Source: a bacterium
GTDB taxonomy: Bacteria; Coprothermobacterota; Coprothermobacteria; Coprothermobacterales; JAADFF01
Length of the DNA stretch: 7,532 nucleotides
Direction of reading: 5' to 3'
Assembly (NCBI GenBank): GCA_027063755.1
Contig: JAMORD010000090.1
Location: 1-7,532 of the forward strand
Part shown: positions 2,286 to 7,532 of the stretch, one piece after another
Position numbering within the stretch: the stretch's first letter is position 1
Layout of the letters: the number at the start of each line of letters is the position of its first letter
Notes under the pieces: generated by a model
Seen by the model: only the letters and a program-made list of their open reading frames with translations
Databases searched by the model: none
Told to the model about the DNA's origin: nothing
Translations under genes and position numbers: made by a program

Positions 2286-2312
2286 GAGGGCGGCAGAATG
2301 CCGCCCTCTTTT
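2286..2312. terminator. Bidirectional intrinsic terminator between pgi and the EamA transporter gene
   Basis: A perfect 10-bp stem, GAGGGCGGCA (2286-2295) with TGCCGCCCTC (2299-2308), closes a 3-base GAA loop. On the plus strand it is followed by TTTT (2309-2312). On the minus strand it is followed, after CA, by six T's (complement of 2278-2283). It lies 6 bases after the pgi stop and 2 bases after the stop of the convergent transporter gene, so it can end both transcripts. The minus-strand U tract is the longer one. Confidence 0.9.
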
Positions 2313-3195
2313 AGTCTTTGTACAAGAGGTACATTGACAATATGACAAGCACTGTGCCGAGCATCATATTCCATGTAATGTGTTCTCCCAGTATAAGCCA
2401 TGCTAAAGTTCCAGCCACTACGGGTTTTAGGAAAAATACTGTTGTGCTTCTATGAACACCGGCCAGTTCCATACCCTTGAAATAGAAAATGTAGCCCAGG
2501 CCTGTGACAACAATACCGATCCACAGTAATGCGCCTAAAACTTTGGTATCGTTATACATTGCTGGGATGATAAGTGGTTCTTTTTTAATCAGAAGAATAA
2601 CAATAAATGTAATAAGAGCCCATATGAATGTAAAGAATATGTTGACATATTTGTCTACCTGATGATTTTTCACTTTAGATAGCACTGAGTAGAGAGAAAA
2701 TGTTATTGCAGCAAAGAATACAAGACTTAGTCCCCACCAGTTTATCTGTTTGACTCCAATGATTTTGTGTGCTGAAATTGTCGCCATACCAATAATACCT
2801 ATAAGAACGGCAGGCCATAAATATTTACTACCTTTTTCTTTAGCTATGGTATGTCCAAAGATAACGGTGAATACTGGATTAGAAGAAAATATTAAGCCGG
2901 CGAGGGCGGCAGAGCCTAAAGCTGGTATTGATGCTACGAGTGATAACATGGATATACCAACTAAAATACCTAAACCTGCAAAGTGTACATGGTCGGTTGT
3001 GGTCAAAGTTTGTTTTTTAAGAGCGGGGAGCATGAAAGGTAGTAGTGTAAGCATTCCTATACCAAACTTAGCTAAGTTTACATGAAGTGGATCTATTCCA
3101 CTACCATGAAGAGCAATTTTGGATGCGACTTCAAAAGAACCGTATGCAATAGCTGTTAATATGAAAAATACATATCCCAATGTGAGTTTGTTCAT
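2311..3195 (-). CDS. EamA/DMT-superfamily transporter, substrate unknown
   Basis: A 294-residue, very hydrophobic inner-membrane protein of the drug/metabolite transporter type, with two EamA repeats and about ten membrane segments. By eye these lie near residues 5-27, 36-58, 72-90, 96-115, 126-143, 152-171, 182-203, 218-238, 250-270 and 276-293. Each repeat ends in a typical pattern: PVFTVIFGHTIAKEKG (107-122) in the first and LAWLILGEHITWNMMLG (264-280) in the second. The family includes exporters and importers of amino acids, nucleotide sugars and other small metabolites, so the substrate cannot be read from sequence. The start ATG (3195-3193) overlaps the sucD TGA stop as ATGA. It has its own Shine-Dalgarno, AAGGAGGT (complement of 3205-3212), inside the end of sucD. 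It is the last gene of the cobalamin-riboswitch operon sucC-sucD-eamA. This link to succinyl-CoA synthetase and B12 is the only clue to its role. Confidence 0.9.
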   Translation of the reverse strand: MNKLTLGYVFFILTAIAYGSFEVASKIALHGSGIDPLHVNLAKFGIGMLTLLPFMLPALKKQTLTTTDHVHFAGLGILVGISMLSLVASIPALGSAALAGLIFSSNPVFTVIFGHTIAKEKGSKYLWPAVLIGIIGMATISAHKIIGVKQINWWGLSLVFFAAITFSLYSVLSKVKNHQVDKYVNIFFTFIWALITFIVILLIKKEPLIIPAMYNDTKVLGALLWIGIVVTGLGYIFYFKGMELAGVHRSTTVFFLKPVVAGTLAWLILGEHITWNMMLGTVLVILSMYLLYKD

Positions 3196-4064
3196 TTCTC
3201 AAGTACCTCCTTAAGAATAAGCGGTATTTCACTGGGTATGTGGGCTACACGGCCTCCTGCATTTTTAATGGCTTTTTCTTTGGCCTCTATGGTGTCGGCT
3301 TCACCAGATACTATAGCACCAGCGTGTCCCATGCGCTTGCCCTTAGGTGCTGTTCTACCGGCAAAATATGCCACTACGGGCTTGGAAAACTCACTTTTGA
3401 TATACTGGGCTGCGTCTATCTCGCTACTTCCTCCGATTTCACCGAGTATGACTACTGCCTCTGTTTCTGGATCACACTGGAATCGTCTTAAGGCTTCTAC
3501 CATTGTCATTCCTATAATAGGGTCTCCACCTAATCCAACAGCTGTTGACACTCCAAGTCCGCTGTCGCTGATAAGCGATGATATTTCATACATTAGTGTG
3601 CCACTGCGGGACAGGATACCCACCTTTCCCTTTTTGAAGACATGACCCGGCATAATACCGAGTTTAGTTTCGCCGGGATTAATAATACCGGGACAGTTGG
3701 GACCAATGACTGTAGCACACTGTCTTCTTGCCACTTCCATAATATGTAGGGCATCATTCACGGGGACATGCTCGGTAATAATAACAACAAGCTTAATGCC
3801 ATTTTTTAAAGCTTCTAGTGCTGCATCTTTGACAAAGGGACCGGGCACAAAGATAATAGATGCATCTATATCATGATTATTTACAGCTTCCTCTACGGTA
3901 TCGTAAACAGGTACACCGTGCACTTCAAGCCCGCCTTTACCGGGAGTAACTCCTGCCACAATCTTGGTTCCGTAATCAAGCATGAGCCTTGTATGATACG
4001 ATCCATATCTTCCTGTAATACCTTGAATAAGCACTGTCGTGTTTTTATTTACTAAAATTCCCAT
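3192..4064 (-). CDS. sucD: Succinyl-CoA synthetase (ADP/GDP-forming), alpha subunit
   Basis: With SucC this cytoplasmic enzyme reversibly converts succinyl-CoA, phosphate and NDP to succinate, CoA and NTP through a phosphohistidine. The protein has 290 residues, normal for the alpha subunit. The N-terminal CoA-binding Rossmann domain is seen at about 4-100, with ITGRYGSYHTR (16-26) and GVTPGKGG (38-45). GPNCPGIINPGE (121-132) follows, then the ligase domain. The phosphorylated His is His247 in MGHAGAIVSGEADT (245-258), at the position of His246 in E. coli. GRTAPKGKRMGHAGA (236-250) is typical of the family. The start ATG (4064-4062) overlaps the sucC TAA by one base (TAATG). It has a Shine-Dalgarno, AAAGGAGGGG (complement of 4072-4081), so the subunits are translationally coupled. 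Related ligases for malate or other acids share this fold. Succinate is the default call, not proven. Confidence 0.94.
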   Translation of the reverse strand: MGILVNKNTTVLIQGITGRYGSYHTRLMLDYGTKIVAGVTPGKGGLEVHGVPVYDTVEEAVNNHDIDASIIFVPGPFVKDAALEALKNGIKLVVIITEHVPVNDALHIMEVARRQCATVIGPNCPGIINPGETKLGIMPGHVFKKGKVGILSRSGTLMYEISSLISDSGLGVSTAVGLGGDPIIGMTMVEALRRFQCDPETEAVVILGEIGGSSEIDAAQYIKSEFSKPVVAYFAGRTAPKGKRMGHAGAIVSGEADTIEAKEKAIKNAGGRVAHIPSEIPLILKEVLEK

Positions 4065-5203
4065 TACTGTCCCCTCCTTTCATAGGCAATTTCTACAGCT
4101 TTCTTGGCTGCTTTTTCCATGTTCATGTACGCCTTAATACCGTTGTCGGCAAGTATTTTTCTGCCAATATCGTCGTTGGTGCCTATGAGACGAACAACAA
4201 CAGGAGGGGCATCGGGGGTTTTCTTAAGAAACTCTACAATAGCCTTGGCTATTTCGTCACATTTGGTGATGCCACCGAAGATGTTCATGAATATAGACTT
4301 TATGCCCTGTTTCTTATTGAGTATCTCCAGGGCTTTAACTGTCTTATCTTTGGTAGCTCCTCCACCAAGGTCCATAAATGATGCCGGCTTGCCGCCAAAG
4401 TATGTGATAAGGTCCATGCTGGCCATGACTATACCGGCTCCGCATCCTACAACGCCAATGTCCCCATCAAGTTCTACAAATGCGATATCTGCTTCCTCGG
4501 CTTCTTTTTCCAAAGGTGTATTTTCTTCATCTTCGGCAGATGGTAGCTCAGGGTGCCTGTATAAGGCGTTATCGTCTATGATAACGACGGAATCCAGGGC
4601 CATAAGTCTGCCATCTACTCTCGCAAGGGGGTTGATCTCGGCAAGTAAGGCATCTTTTTCTCTAAATAGTCTGTAAAGTTTGGCGGCAATGTCTGCCAGT
4701 GCTGGCATGTCTTCTTTGGGAAAACCCAATTTTTTGGCTACTTCTCTGATCTCAAAGGGCATTAACTCAAGAGTGGTGTATGGATGGAATGTGATGATCT
4801 TTTCAGGAGCTGTTTTAGCCAGTTCTTCAATGTCTACACCACCTGCTTCGCTAATGATAACCACTGGGGCCTTTGCCCTTCTGTCAAGGGTGATACCAAG
4901 ATAGTATTCCCTTTCCACATTAACCTTAGGGGCAATAAGCACTTTTCTTACTGTTTTTCCCTTGATTTTTTTGTGAAGAAGCTCGTCAACAGCTTTTTTC
5001 AGCTCGTCAAAGTCCTTGGCAAAGAGAACTCCACCGGCCTTTCCTCTGCCTCCTACAAGAACCTGTGCCTTAACAACAACGGGGAATGTTAGGGCGTTTT
5101 TAATGTAGACGAGCTCTTCAACAGAAGAAATAAGGTGATAGGGTGGATGGGGAATGCCATACTTTGAGAATAGATCCATGCCTTGATACTCATGTAGTTT
5201 CAT
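4064..5203 (-). CDS. sucC: Succinyl-CoA synthetase (ADP/GDP-forming), beta subunit
   Basis: Nucleotide-binding partner of SucD. The protein is 379 residues, close to the E. coli subunit (388). It opens with MKLHEYQGMDLFSKYGIP, the family's usual N-terminus. The ATP-grasp domain covers about 1-240, with Lys45 and the glycine-rich GGRGKAGGV (51-59), and AEINPLARVDGRLMALD (188-204) with the metal-binding Glu/Asn. The C-terminal CoA-ligase domain has FMDLGGGATKD (276-286) and NIFGGITKCD (307-316), a region that contacts phosphohistidine in the E. coli enzyme. An acidic insert-like stretch at 220-240 (EDEENTPLEKEAEEAD) joins the domains. The ATG (5203-5201) has a strong Shine-Dalgarno, GGGAGGTG (complement of 5210-5217). 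This site lies in the expression platform of the upstream cobalamin riboswitch, so translation of the whole operon is likely B12-repressed. Specificity for succinate rather than malate, and ADP rather than GDP, is not settled by sequence. Confidence 0.95.
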   Translation of the reverse strand: MKLHEYQGMDLFSKYGIPHPPYHLISSVEELVYIKNALTFPVVVKAQVLVGGRGKAGGVLFAKDFDELKKAVDELLHKKIKGKTVRKVLIAPKVNVEREYYLGITLDRRAKAPVVIISEAGGVDIEELAKTAPEKIITFHPYTTLELMPFEIREVAKKLGFPKEDMPALADIAAKLYRLFREKDALLAEINPLARVDGRLMALDSVVIIDDNALYRHPELPSAEDEENTPLEKEAEEADIAFVELDGDIGVVGCGAGIVMASMDLITYFGGKPASFMDLGGGATKDKTVKALEILNKKQGIKSIFMNIFGGITKCDEIAKAIVEFLKKTPDAPPVVVRLIGTNDDIGRKILADNGIKAYMNMEKAAKKAVEIAYERRGQ

Positions 5204-5240
5204 AAACTACACCTCCCTTACCCTCGATCAGGAGGGTGAT
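5204..5240 (-). promoter_or_regulatory. Riboswitch expression platform controlling sucC translation
   Basis: On the minus strand two mutually exclusive hairpins can be drawn. Open form: ACCCTC (5237-5232) pairs with GAGGGT (5225-5220), a perfect 6-bp stem with loop CTGATC, leaving the Shine-Dalgarno free. Closed form: CACC-TCC (5238-5231, with C5234 bulged) pairs with GGAGGTG (5216-5210), which is the sucC Shine-Dalgarno itself. The closed-form loop (5230-5217) contains AGGGT. No run of T's follows either hairpin before the ATG at 5203, so control is more likely at translation than at termination. The pairings are read directly; which form the ligand favours is inferred from known cobalamin riboswitches, which usually repress. 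Confidence 0.7.
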
Positions 5241-5250
5241 TTGTTATGCA

Positions 5251-5400
5251 GATGGCAGGTTTCCCGGCTCCCGGATCGTCCTCAGGCTTCGCCTTCCCAG
5301 GGTGTTTCCCCAGTGGCATGTTGAAGCCTTCGTCCCCGGTCACGGTGGCGAGTCCGCCGCGGATTTTCACCGCGTTCCCTTTTATATCACCACCTGCAAA
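5251..5400 (-). ncRNA. Cobalamin (B12) riboswitch aptamer
   Basis: Minus-strand leader of sucC. Reading 5' to 3' on that strand, the conserved cobalamin-riboswitch blocks appear in the right order. A closing strand GCAGGT (5397-5392) is followed by AAAAGGGAACGCGG (5383-5370) and GGTGAAAATCC (5371-5361). Then come CGCCACCGTGA (5350-5340) and GCCACTGG (5317-5310). TGGGAAGGCG (5299-5290) and GAGGACGATCCGG (5283-5271) follow. Last is the B12 box GAGCCGGGAAACCTGCC (5270-5254). ACCTGC (5260-5255) pairs with the 5' GCAGGT to close the core helix. The block is visibly richer in G+C than the AT-rich flanks. The domain layout with an L5 loop (about 5310-5300) suggests the class that reads adenosylcobalamin, but the form of B12 bound cannot be told by eye. 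It starts just after the promoter at 5411-5439. Confidence 0.93.
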
Positions 5401-5410
5401 TACTTTATTC

Positions 5411-5439
5411 ATTATAAATTGCATAAATGTGTAGGTCAA
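5411..5439 (-). promoter_or_regulatory. Sigma70-type promoter of the riboswitch-sucCD-eamA operon
   Basis: On the minus strand, TTGACC (-35, complement of 5434-5439) and a perfect TATAAT (-10, complement of 5411-5416) are separated by exactly 17 bases. Transcription would start near 5404, only a few bases before the first strand of the cobalamin aptamer. This gives a leader of about 200 bases before the sucC ATG. Confidence 0.88.
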
Positions 5440-5515: not shown

Positions 5516-7099
5516 ATGGGTGGTTATTATATGCTTGTTTTACATACACATCTTCCGTGGGTGAAAAAGGCCGGTAAGTGGCCTTTTGGGGAAGAGTGGC
5601 TTTATGAGGCTATATTTGATTCATATATACCACTGTTGATGACATTTAAAAAACTTTCTGAAGAAAATGTTTCTTACAAGGTGGCTATTAATATTACTCC
5701 TGTTGTTGCGGAGATGCTTGAAGATACTTATCTACAGAATGAGGCTCTGGATTATATAGAAGATTTGATAGATAGGGCGGAAAGTGATGTTAAGACCAGA
5801 GATATGCCCTATAGGGAATTGGCTCGTTTCTGGCTGGATCATTTTTCAGAACTTAGGGATTTCTACCTTGAGATAAACAAGGATGTTATTGGGGCCTTTC
5901 GTGAACTGGAAGAAAAAGGCTGTGTGGAACTTTTTACATCGGCTGCTACCCATGGTTTTCTTCCACTGCTTGGGACAGATGGTTCTATAAATCTGCAGGT
6001 TGGTGTAGGAGTTCAGAGCTTTAAAGATAGAGTAGGCAGAATGCCTAAAGGTTTTTGGATGCCCGAGTGTGCCTATAGACCTAAAGAATACATTATCCAG
6101 GGTGACAAGGTTATAGAGAGACCAGGGATTGAGCATTTTTTACAGAAGCATGGTATTGAGTATACCATTATTGACCATAGGGCCCTGCGAATAGACCGTA
6201 TTGCTATAGAAAATGGGTATATGCCCTCTATTCCAGAAGGGGAATATCTTAGCATGCAGCCTTATTATCTTGCCGATTCTTCAGTTGTTGCATTTCCCCG
6301 TCATGGAAGGTTATCTGAACAGGTGTGGTCTGCAGGTATAGGATATCCCGGCGATGGTGATTATCTGGAGTTTCATAAGAGAGACAGCGAAACGGGGCTA
6401 AGATACTGGCGTATTACAGATAAAAATCTTGACCTTGGTTATAAGGATATATATCATCCTGAGTGGGCAGATGGCAAAATCCGGCTTCATGCCAAAGATT
6501 TTGTTTCAAAGGTAGAAGATGTGTTGTGGGAATATGAGAAGAAATATGGCGCAGGTGGCTATGTGTTAACGGCATTTGATACCGAGCTCTTTGGACACTG
6601 GTGGTTTGAAGGTCCGAGATTTCTATATCACATGATAAAGACTATGACTTCCAGTGGTATAGAGGTTATTACCCCCTCTGATTACCTGGAAAGAAGCGAA
6701 GTGGGGGCTCGTGTATATCTTCCTAGAAATTCATGGGGTTATATGGGAACATTCTGGGTTTGGAATAACGATAAAGTGGCATGGATGTGGAAACCCCTTT
6801 ATGAGAGTGAGATATTGGTAAAAAAGGCTCTAAAAGAGGGTAAGAAGAATAAGCGAGTAATTAGACAAATGTTGAGAGAACTTCTTATTCTGGAGGCATC
6901 TGATTGGCAATTTCTTATAACCACAGGTGGTGCCGTTCACTATGCCAAAGATAGGTTTATGCTACATAAAGAAAGAACCGATACGCTAGCCAATGTTCTT
7001 TTGGGTAGAGCAGAAATTGACGAAGATACTTTGGCCATGTGGGAAGATGAAGATAGCCTATTTGAAGAGATAGACGAAACTCTGTATTTGGAGGTGTAG
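5516..7099 (+). CDS. GH57 family 1,4-alpha-glucan branching enzyme
   Basis: Makes alpha-1,6 branches in glycogen-like glucans by cutting and transferring alpha-1,4 chains; cytoplasmic, no signal peptide. The 527 residues match the GH57 branching enzymes of the Thermus type (about 520) and lack the C-terminal tail of the Thermococcus form. The GH57 (beta/alpha)7 barrel motifs are in order: LHTHLPWV (9-16), CVELFTSAATHGFLPLL (136-152), and GFWMPECAYRP (179-189) with nucleophile Glu184. FDTELFGHWWFEGP (354-367) carries acid/base Asp355. The C-terminal DUF1957-type helical region carries NSWGYMGTFWVWNN (405-418) and LEASDWQFLITTGGAVHYAKDRF (459-481). ECAYRP and FDTELFGHWWFEG are the forms seen in branching enzymes rather than GH57 amylases. 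Tyr235 lies about where the tip tyrosine of the branching loop is expected, but this alignment is only by eye. The start ATG has AAGGAGG 9 bases upstream. A second GH57 gene follows after 3 bases. Confidence 0.9.
   Translation: MGGYYMLVLHTHLPWVKKAGKWPFGEEWLYEAIFDSYIPLLMTFKKLSEENVSYKVAINITPVVAEMLEDTYLQNEALDYIEDLIDRAESDVKTRDMPYRELARFWLDHFSELRDFYLEINKDVIGAFRELEEKGCVELFTSAATHGFLPLLGTDGSINLQVGVGVQSFKDRVGRMPKGFWMPECAYRPKEYIIQGDKVIERPGIEHFLQKHGIEYTIIDHRALRIDRIAIENGYMPSIPEGEYLSMQPYYLADSSVVAFPRHGRLSEQVWSAGIGYPGDGDYLEFHKRDSETGLRYWRITDKNLDLGYKDIYHPEWADGKIRLHAKDFVSKVEDVLWEYEKKYGAGGYVLTAFDTELFGHWWFEGPRFLYHMIKTMTSSGIEVITPSDYLERSEVGARVYLPRNSWGYMGTFWVWNNDKVAWMWKPLYESEILVKKALKEGKKNKRVIRQMLRELLILEASDWQFLITTGGAVHYAKDRFMLHKERTDTLANVLLGRAEIDEDTLAMWEDEDSLFEEIDETLYLEV
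7090..7095 (+). promoter_or_regulatory. Ribosome-binding site deciding a GTG start
   Basis: GGAGGT lies within the last codons of the branching enzyme gene, 7 bases before the GTG at 7103. No ATG is present nearby in that frame, and the protein homology begins right at this GTG, so it fixes the start of the second GH57 gene. Confidence 0.75.
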
Positions 7100-7102
7100 C
7101 CT

Positions 7103-7532
7103 GTGGGAAATGTATATTTCATTTTAGGTATACACAATCATCAACCCACTGGTAATTTTGAACATGTGTTTCAGTGGGCATATGAGCATGCATACAAACC
7201 ATTTTTAGAGGTACTGAAGCAGTATCCAAAGATAAAAATATCTATACACCATTCAGGCCCGCTTGTAGACTGGCTTGTAGCAAATCACGATGATTATATT
7301 GATGAGTATAGAAAACTTGCCTCTGAAGGCAGGGTAGAGGTTATGGGAGGAGCCTACTATGAGCCCATTCTACCCATTATTCCTGATGAAGATAAGACGG
7401 GGCAACTACTACTTATGAAGAAAAAGATGAGAGAGATACTGAATTACAATCCTGTTGGTGTATGGGTGCCTGAAAGGGTATGGGAACCATATCTTCCTAA
7501 GTTTATTGCCGGAGCTGGTTATAAATATGTTG
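7103..7532 (+). CDS. GH57 family 4-alpha-glucanotransferase/alpha-amylase, N-terminal part (3' end outside window)
   Basis: The frame opens at GTG 7103 and runs off the window, giving 143 residues. It begins MGNVYFILGIHNHQPTGNFE, the typical start of the GH57 4-alpha-glucanotransferase/amylase group (Thermococcus litoralis type). GH57 motif 1 is HNHQP (11-15), and the first two histidines are expected active-site residues. ISIHHSGPLVDWL (46-58) follows, then motif 2 around GRVEVMGGAYYEPILPIIPDED (76-97). Motif 3 is GVWVPERVWEP (119-129), with Glu124 at the position of the T. litoralis nucleophile Glu123. The acid/base Asp lies beyond the window. Such enzymes move or hydrolyse alpha-1,4-glucan chains in the cytoplasm and remodel storage glucan. 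There is no signal peptide. The 3-base gap after the branching enzyme gene implies one operon. Transferase and amylase activities in this group cannot be separated from the N-terminus alone. Confidence 0.88.
   Translation, partial: MGNVYFILGIHNHQPTGNFEHVFQWAYEHAYKPFLEVLKQYPKIKISIHHSGPLVDWLVANHDDYIDEYRKLASEGRVEVMGGAYYEPILPIIPDEDKTGQLLLMKKKMREILNYNPVGVWVPERVWEPYLPKFIAGAGYKYV

Follow-up and report, generated by a model that had tools for sequence, protein, structure and literature searches.

Does a cobalamin riboswitch directly control sucC and sucD, the genes for succinyl-CoA synthetase, and in which direction would vitamin B12 then act on them? The question is raised by contig JAMORD010000090.1, referred to here as the window, which is the whole stretch of DNA analysed (7,532 nucleotides, nt) and the entire 7.5-kb contig (G000:C90) of a 1.5-Mb genome (G000) that is 88% complete. 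A preliminary description of this locus had proposed that adenosylcobalamin turns down SucCD through a riboswitch in the sucC leader, and had named as checks the Rfam models and a search of related genomes for the same arrangement and for methylmalonyl-CoA mutase. The locus comprises the following elements, in order of transcription.

5411 to 5439, minus strand: sigma-70-type promoter, TTGACC, 17 nt, TATAAT, matching 11 of 12 consensus positions.
5237 to 5409, minus strand: complete cobalamin riboswitch aptamer (RF00174), the 5' edge of which is the expected transcription start.
4064 to 5203, minus strand, ATG at 5203: sucC, succinate-CoA ligase beta subunit, 379 amino acids (TIGR01016, NF001913, PF08442 and PF00549).
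3192 to 4064, minus strand: sucD, succinate-CoA ligase alpha subunit, 290 amino acids (TIGR01019, NF004230).

Comparison of the leader with the Rfam covariance models yielded a significant match to RF00174 at 5409-5237 on the minus strand, with 114.6 bits and an E-value of 6.3e-29 at a gathering score of 31.5. The model was covered end to end (1-189 of 189), indicating that the aptamer is full-length and, as had been claimed, well formed. Nothing else from Rfam matched the window at E≤1. The consensus promoter assigned to the leader was likewise found. Shuffles of the promoter region gave a mean of 1.0 promoter-like match, and the consensus by itself therefore carries little weight; the promoter sequence is identical in G001, the only other genome of the window genus in our sample. 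Between the end of the aptamer and the sucC ATG lie 33 nt without an intervening gene, and sucC is followed by sucD, so that the description of an aptamer leading straight into sucC holds. The range of 4064-5439 given there takes in the promoter, the leader and sucC; sucD runs on to 3192. The first two genes 3' of the aptamer thus fall outside the target classes of uptake, synthesis and B12-independent isozymes. Both gene products passed the curated family cut-offs for succinate-CoA ligase: SucC scored 436.9 bits with TIGR01016 (cut-off 375.6) and 425.4 bits with NF001913 (cut-off 370), and SucD scored 404.6 bits with TIGR01019 (cut-off 353.2) and 405.1 bits with NF004230 (cut-off 336). SucD retains the GHAGA motif of the active-site histidine (PKGKRMGHAGAIV).

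The direction of control was approached through the expression platform, which is made up of the following predicted elements.

5349 to 5352, minus strand: L5 bases CUCG, predicted kissing-loop partner of L13; the L5 element of the window is CGGACUCGCC.
5223 to 5226, minus strand: L13 bases CGAG, inside CGAGGG, predicted kissing-loop partner of L5.
5212 to 5235, minus strand: predicted P13 hairpin, CCUCCU/GGGAGG with a 12-nt loop (GAUCGAGGGUAA), the 3' arm being the sucC Shine-Dalgarno sequence; best fold with CGAG free.
5220 to 5237, minus strand: rival hairpin ACCCUC/GAGGGU, the predicted ON state, which would hide the anti-Shine-Dalgarno arm and L13 and leave the Shine-Dalgarno sequence free.

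In riboswitches of this kind, the ligand lets L5 kiss L13, by which P13 is stabilised and a ribosome-site hairpin or a terminator is promoted (PMC10653944). The motif CG[A/C]GGG of L13 was invariant at the platform position in nine aligned leaders from two phyla, and it is complementary to L5, with CUCG (5352-5349) facing CGAG (5226-5223). L5 reads CCCCG (L5 element CGGCCCCGCC) in seven of eight leaders from Thermotogota and ACUCG in the window genus, and this change is matched in that the L13 bases CGAG pair with CUCG without a bulge. The L13 motif is located in the loop of a hairpin, the stem sequence of which varies among the Thermotogota leaders. With CGAG of the window leader kept unpaired, the best fold paired CCUCCU (5235-5230) with GGGAGG (5217-5212), the Shine-Dalgarno sequence of sucC; the same stem occurs in G001, where a single loop base differs. 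The alternative pairing ACCCUC/GAGGGU (5237-5232 with 5225-5220) reached -9.3 kcal/mol and, by in silico folding, is what the G000 platform adopts at minimum energy; the best CGAG-free fold lies 2.5 kcal/mol higher (energies are for secondary structure at 37°C, tertiary terms left out). The two predicted platform states are near in energy, as a switch requires, and mutually exclusive structures that would hide or expose the ribosome site are energetically plausible in silico.

Because the L13 hairpin pairs the Shine-Dalgarno sequence and the rival hairpin frees it, a translational OFF switch is predicted. With adenosylcobalamin bound, L5 of the aptamer would kiss L13 and P13 would be stabilised, holding the Shine-Dalgarno sequence in its 3' arm and shutting off sucC translation. 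Without ligand, ACCCUC/GAGGGU would capture the anti-Shine-Dalgarno strand together with L13, leaving the ribosome site free so that SucCD would be made. In Marinitoga piezophila KA3 (G394), the homologous L13 hairpin is terminator-like, with 11 pairs and then a U-rich tail (GGAATTTTTA), and this species may reach the same sign at the level of transcription. Kissing loop, P13 and OFF sign are predicted from sequence and folding energies; the platform speaks for the proposed repression of SucCD by B12, the sign of which stands as a prediction. We estimate a probability of about 0.72 that an intact adenosylcobalamin-class OFF riboswitch directly controls the sucCD operon, a figure that does not extend to the direction of flux. 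ACCCUC/GAGGGU was initially taken for P13, a reading that implies an ON switch, and this was dropped after L13 had been placed by comparison with Thermotogota.

Apart from the platform, a perfect inverted repeat, TGTAGTTT-ATG-AAACTACA (5211-5193, minus strand), holds the sucC ATG as its 3-base loop. Its 9-pair form has -7.5 kcal/mol at 37°C and is identical in G001, and the repeat could lower translation without any involvement of the riboswitch. A second RF00174 element of G000 precedes btuFCD, and there are no others in this genome. The sucC aptamers are 92% identical between G000 and G001 and share 63-66% identity with the btuF riboswitches of the two genomes. An origin by recent duplication of the btuF element was considered and is not supported, since this identity is no closer than that to riboswitches of another genus. 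The btuF leader of G000 (L032 7061-7300) has a different platform, in which, read by eye, GGGGGU/ACCUCC competes with ACCUCC/GGAGGU; from this sequence, the sign of the btuF switch is not obvious.

G001 shares the promoter, the riboswitch and both genes with the window, its SucC being 97% identical; L5 and L13 are unchanged, as are promoter and P13 stem. The arrangement was also found in a second phylum. Within a Thermotogota family of 21 genomes (f52), every genome has RF00174 and nine have SucC, and in eight of these nine an element on the coding strand of sucC ends 54-56 nt ahead of the gene. Seven of the carriers belong to one genus (G057, G390, G391, G392, G393, G394 and G395) and one to a second (G403). 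Thus, the search of relatives was positive for G001 and for eight genomes of f52. Both carrier groups, the window genus and the Thermotogota family, are heat-loving anaerobes, and their phyla differ. In the sister family of the window genus, no SucC above noise was detected; two of its genomes, G002 and G003, were inspected, and in both RF00174 precedes a btuF-like gene. SucC of a third family in this phylum is distant and lacks the riboswitch. When coordinates were compared in a control sample (G000-G059), RF00174 adjoined sucC in three of the 37 sucC-bearing genomes, namely G000, G001 and G057. No Rfam match was obtained at 20 further SucC loci. The riboswitch-sucCD arrangement is rare but kept where present.

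In addition, GTDB r220 was scanned for the exact pattern TGCCACTG with a SucC start at 85-145 nt. Twenty loci were returned, with an RF00174 element at the G001 locus only, and over 386 genomes the same pattern recovered G000 and G001 only; being insensitive, the pattern missed the Thermotogota cases and therefore says nothing on absence elsewhere. The B12 box of Thermotogota often occurs without the first T (AAGCCACTGG in G057), and SucC starts with EF, not EYQ. In a tree of 38 SucC sequences, a branch with 100/97 support parted the riboswitch-bearing SucC of both phyla, together with that of G396 from f52, from all others. This tree has long branches (1.29 and 0.51) and is thinly sampled. 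SucD identity between both groups is 45-49%. Judged from these sequences, the cassette of both groups likely shares descent by transfer.

Two cobalamin riboswitches lie about 2.7 kb apart in G393 (L208 403-565 and 3094-3258), G395 (C15) and G390 (C1). Of the pair in G393, the first stands ahead of a cobU-like/cobS-like gene set; the second follows directly downstream of this set and precedes sucC. In G392 (L198, L188), sucC and the gene for methylmalonyl-CoA mutase are split into several frames with in-frame stops, due to either assembly errors or decay.

Related genomes were also searched for the mutase. The adenosylcobalamin-dependent methylmalonyl-CoA mutase is present in all carriers of the riboswitch-sucCD arrangement and in 20 of the 21 genomes of f52, including all nine with SucC. 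In G000 and G001, the enzyme consists of separate catalytic and B12-binding subunits, the genes of which share an operon with those for MeaB, epimerase and MmdA. Family assignments were made on G001, in which the operon comprises mcmA, the B12-binding subunit, MeaB, epimerase, mmdA, oadG, a biotin carrier and a Na+-pump beta subunit; in G000 it reaches the contig end within mmdA. The same gene order, from mutase to biotin carrier, occurs in M. piezophila and in G403. No RF00174 element is associated with the mutase operon in the window genus; the sucCD operon has one. The sole match to PF02310 in the 88% complete G000 is the B12 subunit of the mutase, in a search that does not cover enzymes lacking this domain, such as class II ribonucleotide reductase. 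A BtuR-type adenosyltransferase is also encoded. The genome of the window thus encodes the mutase operon with MeaB and epimerase, the adenosyltransferase and a riboswitch-controlled locus for B12 uptake, btuFCD.

SucCD would provide B12-independent handling of the succinyl-CoA/succinate node when the mutase is without cofactor. We infer, and prefer, a flux from succinyl-CoA to succinate, in which ATP would be formed and CoA released during inactivity of the mutase/decarboxylase branch. Most likely, cells make SucCD under B12 shortage, as a way of serving this node without the vitamin, and SucCD and the mutase would either compete for succinyl-CoA or jointly supply it. The predicted OFF switch fits SucCD as the B12-independent route alongside an idle mutase, not as the main feeder of the mutase.

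The strongest alternative, which we nevertheless consider unlikely, retains the OFF riboswitch and reverses the flux: with B12, the mutase would make succinyl-CoA from propionyl-CoA, and without B12, SucCD would make it from succinate for biosynthesis. The mutase operon carries an epimerase and biotin-dependent carboxyltransferase subunits, the reactions of which are reversible in principle, and to this extent the gene content agrees with such a flux. In G001, however, the operon has an MmdA-type carboxyltransferase together with a Na+-pump beta subunit, a combination that is normally an energy-conserving decarboxylase working towards propionyl-CoA. In Xylanibacter, the pathway runs in the propionyl-CoA-forming direction (PMC11575231).

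Next in standing, and clearly improbable, is an activating switch, by which B12 would raise SucCD and so feed succinyl-CoA into the mutase pathway. This would be sensible if SucCD were the entry to the mutase branch, and the minimum-energy hairpin of G000, taken as P13, would leave the Shine-Dalgarno sequence free. That hairpin, however, buries L13, with GAGGGU in the stem, which is incompatible with a kissing loop. With L13 free, the Shine-Dalgarno sequence falls into P13, and L13 was placed by conservation across two phyla; the L13 hairpin of Marinitoga is itself terminator-like. All corrinoid riboswitches known before 2023 repress, and the one precedent for activation is cobT of Alkalihalobacillus halodurans (PMC10653944). 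There, P13 excludes an inhibitory structure; unlike this, P13 of the window, with L13 free, would hide the Shine-Dalgarno sequence.

It is more improbable still that the two proteins form, instead of succinyl-CoA synthetase, a relative among the acyl-CoA ligases such as those for malate or acetate. The superfamily has several substrates, and the riboswitch-linked homologues of Thermotogota are shorter than those of the window (SucC by about 40 and SucD by about 10 residues; L135 6313-8167) and score below the NCBIfam cut-offs for succinate-CoA ligase, so that their substrate is not certain. SucC and SucD of the window, in contrast, pass these cut-offs and are far below those for malate-CoA and acetate-CoA ligase. 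Least probable of all is a functionless relic, left before sucCD by a rearrangement: a separate riboswitch serves the B12 uptake locus of G000, and sucCD adjoins cobU-cobS genes in two Thermotogota genomes, showing that such moves are possible, but both genomes of the window genus retain the aptamer, the promoter, L5 and L13, and eight genomes of another phylum, seven in one genus and one in a second, retain the arrangement.

Several observations weigh against an OFF switch tied to the mutase. The minimum-energy fold in G001 is already the form that pairs the Shine-Dalgarno sequence, and the model of P13 and the Shine-Dalgarno sequence was built on two near-identical leaders and secondary-structure energies only. 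In f52, G396 has sucC without a visible element in the 119-122 nt left to the contig end. Finally, mutase-bearing relatives without SucCD exist (G002-G004 and most of f52), and SucCD is therefore not a needed partner of the mutase.

Compared to known members of the adenosylcobalamin class of RF00174 (Escherichia coli btuB, env8HyCbl type), the window has the same complete aptamer, a downstream L13 hairpin complementary to L5 and predicted translational OFF control. It differs in its target, sucCD instead of uptake, synthesis or isozyme genes, and in that the predicted P13 itself holds the Shine-Dalgarno sequence. In Veillonella parvula, a cobalamin riboswitch is located on a gene named mutA (PMC9600662), and by this analogy the mutase pathway is probably already within known B12-riboswitch control. 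There the target is the mutase gene; in the window genus it is sucCD, and the mutase operon is without RF00174. The metE riboswitch (Priestia megaterium, PMC10653944) follows a similar logic, as B12 represses the B12-independent enzyme and the B12-dependent one takes over; unlike that pair, SucCD and the mutase are not isozymes but share succinyl-CoA as a substrate. A riboswitch of Listeria monocytogenes also ties B12 sensing to a B12-dependent catabolism, that of propanediol, but according to the work cited in PMC11575231 it acts indirectly via an antisense RNA, with expression being maximal in the presence of cobalamin. In Xylanibacter, riboswitches and propionate pathway genes lie apart (PMC11575231). 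The preliminary description had placed sucCD outside the known targets. No report of sucCD as a target of a cobalamin riboswitch was found in the openly licensed literature, which does not prove novelty, and an earlier note elsewhere is possible. The riboswitch as such is known; what is apparently new is that sucCD is its target and that this pairing recurs.

As a tentative proposal, to which we give somewhat less than even odds, the riboswitch-sucCD cassette has spread between thermophilic, anaerobic phyla, senses the cofactor of the mutase and sets the exit from succinyl-CoA, either by the B12-dependent, ion-pumping propionate branch or by substrate-level phosphorylation. If this is true, the B12 riboswitch would be a selector of fermentation branches and not a device for B12 homeostasis. 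Control of sucCD as such would give the B12-riboswitch regulon a core enzyme of energy metabolism, and the metE logic would no longer be confined to isozymes but would also cover reactions that compete at a branch point. In communities of this kind, the supply of the vitamin could shift fermentation between succinate and propionate as products. As M. piezophila KA3 carries the arrangement, the idea is testable in a named, sequenced strain and not solely in an uncultured genome.

Downstream of sucD, one further gene lies on the same strand.

2311 to 3195, minus strand: DMT/EamA-type transporter gene (TIGR00950, 92.4 bits, below cut-off), overlapping sucD by 4 bases.

This gene is probably the third gene of the operon in the window genus only. 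It also occurs in G001, and an AspT/YidE-type transporter gene takes its place in G057. Divergent from the riboswitch operon, 5516-7532 on the plus strand holds a gene resembling alpha-glucan branching enzyme (NF041133, 506.5 bits, below cut-off), followed by another gene resembling it, the visible part of which gave no NCBIfam hit. At the contig start, 2-892 on the plus strand is a frame of the RtcB family. Its best NCBIfam match is the model for intein-containing RtcB (665-961 of 961), and the contig may end short of an intein.

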